From the NCBI RefSeq assembly GCF_963678975.1, contig NC_089281.1:11123277-11187276 (forward strand): a DNA stretch of 64,000 nucleotides, written 5' to 3'. The translations under genes and the position numbers were made by a program. Origin of the DNA: Dysidea avara (lineage: Eukaryota; Porifera; Demospongiae; Dictyoceratida; Dysideidae). Below the pieces are notes generated by a model. It saw only the letters and a list, made by a program, of their open reading frames with translations, had not been told where the DNA came from and did not search any database. Positions 6,301 to 12,400 of this stretch are shown piece by piece (within the stretch, counting starts at the first letter, position 1; the number at the start of each line of letters is the position of its first letter).

Positions 6301-9300
6301 AAAAGGGATCTAAACGTGATTTCCATTACCAAATTTTGTGCAAATCCGATGTACAATCATGAAGTTATGATTATTTGCACAAAAAAGATTAACTTACAGG
6401 GTAAGCTACTTTACAAATCAAGTTGAAAATCAGTTAGTGAATATATTAGCCATCAATGGTAGGAGTGCTTTTTGGTGGTTTGAAAGGAACTGAGATGAAG
6501 ACTATGGGGGATATAATTTGAAACCAAATGTGTGTACTGTGTAGTGACTGCGTGATCGAGTTTTGAGAATACATTAATTTTCATACCTACTAGGCAAACC
6601 ACTATAGGAAATGAAAATTGGTATGTAGATGGATGTTGTGAAAACCAACGTGTAGCAAGTGTGCAATCAATATACTCTAATAGTACAGTTACCCTATTAG
6701 AACATTCAGCTACAGTGATAACTTAGAGCGTTCAGCTACATAACAAGCCACTGTCTAGAGAGTTCAGCTATGTTCCTGTGGAGAGTTCAGCTATAAACAA
6801 ACAAGTCACCCTGTAGAGGGTTCAGCTATGTTACAAATCACACACAAAAAGTCACTGTATAGAGAGAGTTCAGCTATGATACAAACCATGCTGTAGATGT
6901 AGCAAGTCATCCTGTAGAGAATTTAGCTACAAACAAGCCACGCTATAGAGAGTTCAGCTGTGTAACAAGTCATCCTGTGGACAGATCAGTATCAAAAAAG
7001 TCACCCTGTAGAGAGTTCAGCTACTGTACAAACAAATCACACTGTGCTACAAAAATTCACCATGTAGAGAGGGTTAGAGTAGAGTGTGGTGGATGGGAGT
7101 GCCAACTAGGGCCGGTTCTTCTTCCTTTAAAATTTGTTTTAAAAATCACAGCCATTTTTTTGGTAGGGAATTTGCATGATATACTGATACATTGATGTAA
7201 AATTTACTATCATGATATATAACAATATGAAAATATTTACATCGTAACAGCTGTACATCGCATGATTTTAATGCAAAAATGGCTAGCACCAAGTTTGTCA
7301 ACAGTAGTGGGCTTCTACACTGGATGTCTCAAGGTACATACCCACCCATGCAGCTAAGTGCACATGTCTTTCAGATGTGTTACTGTAAATGTGTGATCAG
7401 CTTATACACACTAAGTGTGTGTTCTAACTCACTAACTTGTAATTAAGTTTCATGAAATAAACATGTTACCTATCTGACACAACATTGTAATACATATCGT
7501 GATATCTTTAAAAGTGATAGGTGAGTGACAGTTGGTTTTACTTGGTGATTCATACCCCTATTTCTTGGACACCACCTTTGACTTCAGAACTTTTTTCACT
7601 GAGGGGCTGCACCTATTTTATATAGCTAGCTGTCTTGGTCTTAGCAGCCATAACTTAGTAGTCTAGAGAGTTGTGATCAATTGTTCATGCATGAATTAGC
7701 AAATCCACCCAAGATAAAAGTTTTAGCCTTGTATATATTCATTCACTCATGCATATAGCATTAAGAAAATATATATGAAGATATTTTTTCTGCTTCAATG
7801 TAAACAGCGCATACAGTATAACAGAAATGAAGTATAGTTATTCATTTCAAACTCTTCATGAGCAGGTGAACAAGACAGCACAGATTATAGGTTTTATCAA
7901 TTTGTGACTTGCGCTTCGCCGATTAACAGAGCAATTAATACATGCATAAATTTCTTTATACTGTTCGCACTTGAACCGCTTTCATCAAGTTGGTTCGATC
8001 CAAACTATTTTCAAACCGCTTCACATTCTTCACGCGTTCACACCAGCAAAAAGATAAACTACTTTAAAACAGAAAGCGCTTATAATAATTATTTGTTCTA
8101 ATAGTTAAGCGACTTTAGCGGAATGGAGTTGTTAATTTTGGTGATGTTTTTTGGTTAAGAATGCATTGGAAAGCAGCGAAGAGTCTAGAAGTTTAAAACA
8201 AAAGGAACTAGCCGGGAAGAAGCGTGTTTCACGCTACCTGAGACAAAGGCGAGCAAGACTAATCAGGTACAGGACACGCCACGACTGAGTCCCTGGTGGG
8301 ATAATACTTAGATAGACGTTTAGTTTATAGCTGAGTAAAGTGGATTGTTTCAAAGCGGTTTGAGGTGGTTCAAATCACATCAGAAGGTGAGTTGAAAATA
8401 ACTAGTTTATAATAAAGCACTTTAAGTGTGAACGAATTAAACTGGTTTGTAACCGGTTTGAAAGCGGTTTATAGCGACAGTGCGAACACCCCTAATGGAT
8501 TGATATGAACTATGAGACTTTTCACTGCAACAGTCACATACGGTATATGGTGGTAGTATTGAGCTATTTAATAAAATATAGTATCAGCAACAGCTTTACA
8601 AAAAAAAAGTTGTTGTCAACTAACTTGTCTGACATGGTACACACACATACATGCTGTAATCAAAAAACAATACTGAGATGCTTTATTACCTGAATGGGCT
8701 GTATCCCACAAGATATACACTGTGATATCCTCCTCACCTACAAACACATAATAGTTACATCACTACTAGAGTACACTGGTACACCATTAAGTATTTTCAA
8801 ATGGTAGGATACAGATCTTATGACACCAGTATATGGTACAAATATCATTGATAACACTCTGATCATACTTCAGCCCTCTTGAATGGATCATTACGAGGTA
8901 GAAGATATGGTGGTGTATTTCTGGTCTCATCCAAATACTCCACTATGGCCATCTGTACAAAACGAGAGCCAGCGTCATGACAGGTGGATGGGTCAGCTTT
9001 ATTCTCACCGACTGCGTTAAGACATGACCATCAATTTCCAGTGATGGTACTTCACACTGAGGATTAACCACCTTGTAATCTTCAGCATACTATCAAATTA
9101 TAACACAGAATATCTCTAATATAACAGTCTGTGCCTATTACCTGCTCTCCACCATCATTTAGCAGATGTACGGCCTTGTAGTCGTATTCTATACCCTTTA
9201 GTGCAAGGGCTAGGATAACAGGGAGAAAGTTGGTCATTTACTGTTAGAATGATGTGTGGCCAAGAAAGTACTCACCAATTCTAACTCTCCAGGAGCAAGA

Positions 9301-9425: not shown

Positions 9426-12400
9426 ATGGAGACAACAGAAGATTCACCCAATACGGTAACGGGTGAGAAACGTAAAAGAGGACTAAGGAAAAAGCCAGTG
9501 TTGAAACAGTATTTCCTGGGTGGAGATTCTAGTATATGGTACTACTGCCTACTGGCAGTGTTCACTGTCGCCTCATTGTGGACTAGATTGTACAATCTAT
9601 CCGAGCCTACTCATATTGCGTAAGTTTGTAAAATTTGGAGATGTTGTAGTGGGCATTATTCAGAAATAAAGGCATAGAAGAATTTTAAAATTATCCCACG
9701 CATTTTATACCCAACAGATGGGATGAGACTCATTTTGGCAAGCATGCTAGCTGGTATATACAAGGATCATTCTTTTTTGATGTACACCCGCCACTTGGGA
9801 AGGTATGATGACTACATGTTTTGTTTTTCTACTCAATAATGGATGATCACAGATGCTTATTGCATTTTCTGGCTATGTGTCTGGCTACAATGGCAGTTTT
9901 GAGTTCAAGGAGCCAGGAGTGTCTTATGAAGATTATCCTTACTATGGAATGAGATTGGTGAGTGTTGTGCTTGTTATATCAGTGATTGAAGTATGGAACT
10001 GCTTTGAGAGTGTCAGGTATACAGCCTGTACATGATCCAAGCTGCAAAAATTATGGCCTTCAGCTCTTTCGTACTGACTAAAGGGGTCAGTATGAAAGAG
10101 ATGTGATATCAGATAAATAGCTGTAGTGATGCTAACGTCAATATAAATGTAAAGGTGTTACATAACTTTACAAGGTTTAAAACATTAGCTATGCCAATCA
10201 GCCTCATTTGGTATCGCATGTTTTTTATTTATTTATTTATTTTTAATGTCAATCAGCCTCTCATGTTTTTGTGTTTTTTGTTTTGTTTGTTTTTTTGAAT
10301 GCCATTTTCTTCACAACTTGGCAGGAAAGCTGACTGTCTGTTGTTTTTGCTCCAAGTACATACCAAAACTAGTCGACATATCTTGTGTAACTAGACAGAT
10401 GCTAAAAGCATGATGGGGCGAGCCTGGATTGTGTGTCAAAAGTGATGCGGCATCAACTGTATTTCCATGAATAGCGTTTAATGTGTGTGTGTTTGTAGCT
10501 ATACATACAGAAATGCTCAGGCTACTCTAGAGGTAGCTGGAGGAAGGTGAAAAAAGTTCAAGTTGGGAGGCTCAGTGGCTTGCCAGTATATAGCTACATA
10601 ACTGTGTGGAAGCATAGTCAGCTAGGACTTATCTCCCTGTCTTCTGCAGTTTCATTGGCCAACTGCATGCTCTCTTCTGCGAGTATGCATGGCGTTTATC
10701 AGGTGTCTACTTGCTTGTGCTTCATGTGGCATTTGTGCTGCCATCCTTGCCCTGTCTCATTCTCTCCCTGCCTTCTTCTAAGACGGTCTTCTTTGTCCAT
10801 GTCTATGTAGATAAGAAGTTGTAACCCACGTGACAAATTCTAAGCCAAGTGGCACAAATATGTACAGGAAGTATTCGTGAACGTGACGCACATACCATTC
10901 CCCCGGGCATTCACCAGCCAGTGTTCCCTCCTCGCCCTGTCTCGTTTTCTCCCAGCCTTCTTCCAAGATGGTCTTCTTTGTCCATGTCAATCTGATAAGA
11001 ATAAGTTGTGAGACAAGTGACAAGCAACAAATTCTAAGCCATATGGGGCTTTTTTCCGTGTTTGTTACGTAAACTCTTGGGAATGGTCAGACGTACGGTC
11101 GTACATACAGTTGAGCACTACCAGTGTGGGGCTGTCCGTGTTCGTTATGTAAACTCTTGGGAATGGTCAGACGTATGGGTCGGACGTACGAGTGACTACT
11201 GCCATTTGTGGGGCTCGCTCAGGCTCGCCCCAATTAACACTATCAAGAGTATATAATAGGAGGGAGAGTGGAACTACACAATAGGCTGTGGAAAATGAGC
11301 CCCTCATAACTTTATTTCTTCTTGTAAACCTGACTGCTGTTGATTACTCAGATTTAACACCTTAAAAGTTTTGACAGGTGGTCTGCATGGAATTGCAATG
11401 GCTGAAATTCCCTCTAGATGTGTGTCATTTTTGCTAGTATATAGAACTGTTGAGACAGGGGATGGCGACCATGATGAAATCTCGATGGTGATGAAATCTT
11501 AATGTTAAATAAATTGTTTGCTTTCCAGGATAGCTGCTTGTGTCTTTCTCTTTGTACAGCGAGGTCCTCTGCGCAATGTGCCATACTTTTCTCGAGGACA
11601 CCATTCTTTCACTCAGTGGTCATATATACAAAGTGTGCCCACTGCACTCATAATTAGTCACCAACCAACACAAGTCACCGAGTCGTTTGAATGATGCCAT
11701 ATGACTTTATGGATCATTTTTCACAGCATATAGCTCAGTTCGACACTCTCCCTCCCCATTACATACACTCTCGACACTATCGATCCACAACAACAGAATT
11801 TGCTATACTGTAGAATCGGGCTGTTAAGTGCATGCGCTTATAATTTTTAATCACAAGAAATGTGTATGCGCTTAACACTTAATAGATCTAGCGCTTAACA
11901 ACCCGATTATATGGTATGCAGTATATGACTGCTCTGTTAGAGTACTTTGATTGTGCATATTTCATGTTTGATTTGTGTTATCTCTTTGATATTTATTTAA
12001 TCAGACTTTAAGACAGTTTGCACCTTGATTGGGGCAAGCCTGAGTGAGCCCCACACTAGCAAGTTGATGGTACGTCTCGTTTACAGACAATTACAAGATA
12101 ACATGGATACTTACAAATGCTTCCGTATAAGGCTGGTACATACGTTCATAACATGAACAATAACCGTCATGATTTACTGACACTCCATATAAGGCTGGTA
12201 CGTGCATTTATGACGCAAACAATAACCAGCATGTTTTACTGGTCTATTCCTTATTTTTCGTGCATTGTCCAAATGGACGACACAGATGATAGAACTAAAT
12301 TGCTTCGTAGGCATCGCAGAGAGCTTAATAGACTTAATAGATTGCTAATGGAAAAAGAAACACCAGAAGAAGTGTAATTGAGAAGACCATGCAAGGAACA

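Follow-up and report, generated by a model that had tools for sequence, protein, structure and literature searches.

GSTZ1 and POMT2 are known to lie close together in chordates, near the neuroglobin (NGB) orthologue on amphioxus scaffold 245 as on human 14q24.3 (PMC3087553). In the sponge Amphimedon, 45% of genes are placed so that a neighbour could use the same core promoter in the other direction. The intergenic distance there has a median of 587 bp, and the commonest motif of bidirectional promoters is an Sp1-like GC-box (PMC4773876). Bidirectional promoters account for 25% of neighbouring genes in amphioxus; they are commonest among ubiquitous genes and enriched for housekeeping functions (PMC6292497). 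A human bidirectional pair is driven by NRF-2 with YY1 (PMC2713978), and GSTZ1 itself was tested as one of the SETD1A targets, which are enriched in head-to-head genes (PMC9771694). The TISU element acts in both mammalian transcription and translation, on mRNA leaders with a median of 12 nt (PMC2518114). Ancient microsyntenic pairs have also been studied in Amphimedon, with 80 reported and 60 confirmed (PMC5429095). Here we analyse GSTZ1 and POMT2 in the sponge Dysidea avara, in a stretch of 64,000 nucleotides (the window; C10:11123277-11187276) on the 30.7-Mb contig C10 of a 551-Mb assembly with 108 contigs. In the open-licence literature searched, we found no paper on GSTZ1/POMT2 as a bidirectional promoter pair.

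We observed that GSTZ1 and POMT2 lie on opposite strands of the window with their 5′ ends facing, and that 32 bp separate the start codons at 9393 (minus) and 9426 (plus; Table 1). Three features of this arrangement are newly noticed: the GSTZ1 start lies in a TISU core, stop codons of both open reading frames (ORFs) lie in one palindrome, and a CpG peak in an otherwise CpG-poor genome covers the gap. These data suggest that the two genes probably use a single bidirectional promoter, short (~150 bp), rich in CpG and centred on the gap, which was inherited from an early animal. Sharing since early animal evolution is most likely the reason why neighbours diverge with so little between their starts. 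We read it as an ancient divergent pair with a plausible composite promoter, and an unusually old example. We infer the start sites, the factors, co-regulation and adjacency outside D. avara.

Compared with the chordate neighbourhood, the likeness is that both genes are close together (PMC3087553). The Amphimedon promoters are alike in sponge host, head-to-head genes, short gap, E-box and YY1/Kozak-type motif, but their start sites come from RNA data, whereas the D. avara pair is known from sequence alone (PMC4773876). As in TISU, ATGGCGGC has its ATG as the start, and it stands where a leader would have to be very short or else reach into the partner gene; TISU was described in mammals (PMC2518114). 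Like the ancient metazoan microsyntenic pairs, GSTZ1 and POMT2 are unrelated neighbours kept from sponge to vertebrate. The work on those pairs differs in centring mostly on enhancers in neighbours' introns (PMC5429095).

Table 1. Positions in the window of the GSTZ1/POMT2 pair and of the elements between and around the two start codons
Feature	Position	Strand	Details	Basis
GSTZ1 (maleylacetoacetate isomerase)	3359..9393	minus	10 coding exons, 220 aa	splice model and similarity
GSTZ1 exons 1-5	9393-9379, 9327-9276, 9209-9142, 9089-9009, 8952-8869	minus		splice model
GSTZ1 exons 6-10	8737-8690, 3974-3896, 3761-3709, 3662-3613, 3491-3359	minus		splice model
ATGGCGGC, GSTZ1 start codon inside TISU/YY1-type core	9386..9393	minus		putative function
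Gap between start codons	9394..9425	none	32 bp; proposed core of shared promoter	putative function
Palindromic E-box TCACGTGA	9403..9410	none	contains the closest in-frame TGA upstream of each ORF	putative binding
CpG peak across gap and both first exons	9331..9490	none	11 CpG per 150 bp (9341-9490); sample mean 1.8	
POMT2 (protein O-mannosyltransferase 2)	9426..37588	plus	21 coding exons, 724 aa	splice model and similarity

Similarity searches agreed with the gene identities given in a preliminary description of this DNA. Residues 1-116 of the spliced minus-strand gene matched human GSTZ1 (1fw1, E 8.4e-41), and zeta-class similarity extended over the full length, with the SSCSWRVRIAL stretch present. 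Among the matches listed, the closest relative was the transcript protein P0001 (88% identity) and the closest named one came from a sponge, Geodia barretti (75%). When GSTZ1 was searched against the whole genome in six frames, all 6 matches fell within this locus. For the plus-strand gene, residues 1-127 matched yeast PMT2 best (6p25_B, 1.3e-24), ahead of PMT4 (1.6e-21) and PMT1 (3.4e-16). A part model of 570 residues was 66% identical to POMT2 of Halichondria and 65% to that of Amphimedon, the closest named proteins among the matches listed. Pfam identified a PMT domain in this gene, and PMT, MIR and C-terminal domains in full-length relatives. By similarity, we therefore assign it to POMT2 (PMT2 subfamily), being nearer PMT2 than PMT4 or PMT1. 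A PMT-family genome search gave 2 matches, both in the window's POMT2; POMT1 was not seen in this search, which is weak for split genes. Both models are complete, each with one terminal stop only, and their splice sites are GT-AG in 28 of 29 introns and GC-AG in one. The GC-AG case is POMT2 intron 12 (28275-28276, CAG|GCAAGT). GSTZ1 exon 1 has just 15 nt.

The span 9276-9619, bounded by the ends of GSTZ1 exon 2 and POMT2 exon 1, had been described as a head-to-head pair with a symmetric E-box between the ATGs, and the coordinates confirmed both the 32-bp spacing and the palindrome. The nearest in-frame upstream stops are TGA at 9408-9410 for POMT2 and at 9405-9403 for GSTZ1. Because both sit in the palindrome, the two ATGs are the first possible starts without splicing; we estimate the chance of both stops falling in frame at about 1 in 9. 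The first AUG of POMT2 has a Kozak-like context (GAAATGG). This layout predicts either leaders shorter than about 15 nt or crossing start sites, with mRNAs that overlap at their 5′ ends. A very short leader for GSTZ1 would fit the TISU core at its start. The tiny gap by itself is unremarkable, because such a gene arrangement is common in Amphimedon and the intergenic median there is small (PMC4773876).

We compared motif and CpG counts with a background of 160 kb sampled at 16 places and with 40 kb of flank. TCACGTGA occurred 3 times in the window against 0.46 expected, and none of 100 shuffles gave 3; there were 3 copies in the 160-kb sample and 1 in the flank. The E-box is not unique to the gap: TCACGTGA also occurs at 22869 (POMT2 intron), at 56009 and in interspersed repeats. 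Near the copy at 22869, an inverted repeat around GGCTACATTTCGTATGTAGCC (22750-22880, POMT2 intron 10) looks like a mobile-element remnant. CpG observed/expected was 0.34 in the sample, and 150-bp windows as CpG-rich as the gap made up 0.4% of both the window and the sample. Such peaks numbered 10 in the sample and 5 in the flank. The window has 4, at 9331 (gap), 11041 (POMT2 intron 3), 37671 (past the POMT2 stop and ahead of a Ras-family ORF) and 55351 (at most 0.5 kb from where an ORF that we take to be PPIP5K-like starts).

ATGGCGGC was found 2 times in the window against 0.41 expected, and was absent from both strands of the sample and flank. Because 5 of 100 shuffles also reached 2, the motif alone is weak evidence. 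The presumed PPIP5K-like ORF (minus, start 55811) has a start codon that overlaps an other-strand ATGGCGGC, with the third TCACGTGA ~200 bp upstream (55810-56016).

We also searched the genome for the two motifs together, and assigned matches to repeats by eye. TCACGTGA lay at most 30 bp upstream of ATGGCGGC in 49 matches, of which 31 fell in one repeat, 3 in another and 15 were single, the GSTZ1 site included; five of the single sites were among the first 20 matches. The downstream order gave 15 matches, with 8 in one repeat, 3 in a second and 4 at single sites. Single sites favoured the upstream order (15 versus 4, P = 0.0096, one-sided), as did counts with each repeat taken once (16 versus 6, P = 0.026). 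One single match, at about 1500-1640 of L038, has a divergent ORF at +120, presumably UPF3-like, so the layout may recur at a second divergent pair, as another possible bidirectional promoter of E-box/TISU type. The family behind the 31 matches (L029, L030, L032, L034, L040, L041, L043, L044, L047, L048 and others) is interspersed and bears GCCGCCAT...TCACGTGA; it is a mobile element spreading start-codon core and E-box together.

To follow the pair in other species, we used the best 120 of 7960, 2494 and 2426 homologue matches and paired species by eye. Linkage was read from equal size listed for the contigs carrying GSTZ1 and POMT2, where size is that of the longest contig among cluster members, and the count covers rows with both contig size and species name. 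Equal size in all likelihood means the same contig; it indicates linkage, not adjacency. Among the matches listed, the two genes had equal contig sizes in 14 of 20 species from what we take to be six phyla: Halichondria, Corticium, Nematostella, Dendronephthya, Glandiceps, Ptychodera, Acanthaster, Asterias rubens, Amphiura, Apostichopus, Gigantopelta, Liolophura, Latimeria and Lissotriton. The comparable species include no arthropod, ctenophore or choanoflagellate. In four of the 14, the contig was below 10 Mb (Dendronephthya 2.9, Acanthaster 3.6, Halichondria 6.0 and Corticium 9.0 Mb). By our own estimate, the two genes would fall on one chromosome by chance in perhaps one of every 10 to 20 species. 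The same genes are thus linked across distant phyla, as in microsyntenic pairs. The single match to AHSA1, which we take to be a 14q24.3 gene, lies on the D. avara chromosome C10 (5.6% of the assembly). Neuroglobin was not found beside POMT2 as in chordates: with an NGB probe, the best tblastn match in the window was an unconvincing 19.6 bits, so by this probe the window differs from the NGB-POMT2-GSTZ1 neighbourhood in having no globin (PMC3087553).

Several observations weigh against a promoter shared since early animals. Contig sizes differed in 6 of the 20 species (Lottia, Trichoplax, Exaiptasia, Octopus sinensis, Geodia and the non-animal Capsaspora), although draft breaks may explain part of these cases. 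Of the non-bilaterian animals compared, equal sizes were listed for Halichondria, Corticium, Nematostella and Dendronephthya, and unequal ones for Geodia (contigs of 118 and 58 kb), Exaiptasia and Trichoplax. The pair is therefore old but not indivisible. The preliminary description had proposed a deeply conserved bidirectional promoter, indivisible if the pair survived across animals: identities, orientation, E-box and deep linkage stood, the last also through the amphioxus and human neighbourhood (PMC3087553), but indivisibility was not supported. Its call to compare the pair in other animals was answered for linkage, with adjacency and orientation read directly in D. avara alone.

The different scaffolds in Capsaspora and Trichoplax would suit genes that joined independently in the sponge lineage and in chordates. 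We consider such a convergent origin extremely improbable, given the linkage in 14 species, the position of AHSA1 and a chance of head-to-head adjacency for a given pair that we estimate at about one in tens of thousands. The separation in 6 of 20 species also suits inertia, in which old neighbours were brought close in a short-gap genome, with small core promoters of their own and nothing holding them. Other gaps in the window are indeed short (about 205 bp separate the GSTZ1 stop from that of a kinase-like ORF, and about 300 bp lie between the POMT2 stop and the ORF after it), as in Amphimedon (PMC4773876). We judge inertia a serious but somewhat unlikely explanation: 32 bp is too small for two separate promoters, though introns grew to totals of 5.4 kb in GSTZ1 and about 26 kb in POMT2. 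A pair this old would also be atypical, because most human divergent pairs have been suggested to postdate the deuterostome-protostome split (PMC2670823).

Further points of this kind concern the motifs and the splice sites. Interspersed repeats also bear TCACGTGA and the ATGGCGGC core. TISU bases 1-4 in D. avara are GATA, which fits 2 of 4 positions of what we take to be the consensus, SAAS, a term not found in PMC2518114; the match is therefore to the core only. A TISU core requires a protein starting MAA, and 17 GSTZ1 homologues among the best 120 do so, Geodia and Halichondria included. P0001 starts MKPV, Corticium MSKP and human MQAGK, so the core is not deeply conserved, being kept in neither P0001 nor human. 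We scored acceptors with a matrix built from the 25 acceptors of GSTZ1 and POMT2 themselves. Two weak acceptor-like AGs exceeded 4 of the 25 real acceptors, one on the plus strand (ending 9386) with a score of 2.9 and one on the minus strand (exon from 9482) with 3.1, so upstream exons may exist. Untranslated upstream exons in one or both genes, with separate promoters, would make the gap a splice-flanked leftover. This seems quite improbable: real acceptors had a median of 5.7, the remaining four AGs scored -1.7 or less, and the CpG peak coincides with the gap.

For a shared promoter, we propose the following mechanism, by analogy with amphioxus and human bidirectional promoters. A basic helix-loop-helix zipper dimer of USF, TFE or Myc-Max type would bind the palindromic TCACGTGA and hold the gap open, and polymerase would load both ways from the flanks of the gap. 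The ATGGCGGC core would have two roles: with a YY1-type factor bound, it would set the start site of GSTZ1 a short way upstream, and it would also let ribosomes begin on a very short GSTZ1 leader. POMT2 translation would begin at its first AUG. A bolder proposal, which we regard as unlikely, is that the composite of E-box and start codon has been the unbroken promoter of both functionally unrelated enzymes from a time before sponges and other animals diverged. Such an element would force starts within tens of bp and leave at least one mRNA almost leaderless, and the few lineages that separated the pair (a placozoan and some molluscs, for example) would have done so via a new promoter.

Other features were observed in the window. 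A CAGG-type tetranucleotide array (5200-5800), open in several frames, lies within the 4.7-kb GSTZ1 intron 6. Beyond the GSTZ1 stop are the pieces of the kinase-like ORF (1272-3153; the last is ~205 bp away), with motifs that we take to be protein kinase D-like; a Pfam scan of the piece at 2197-2493 gave no family. About 300 bp past the POMT2 stop are Ras-family GTPase ORFs (37887-38926, Pfam Ras), presumably Rho-like. Two similar tandem ORF sets on the minus strand (47062-51077 and 58007-63994), with His_Phos_2 matches in each, are probably a duplicate of what we take to be PPIP5K.

If true, the retention of two unrelated enzyme genes side by side in sponges and humans alike would offer a clean case for whether a shared promoter alone binds genes for some 700 million years, and the question is testable because the gap is tiny and defined. 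One control region would then matter to the biology of both POMT2, a muscular-dystrophy gene, and GSTZ1, a gene of tyrosine catabolism.

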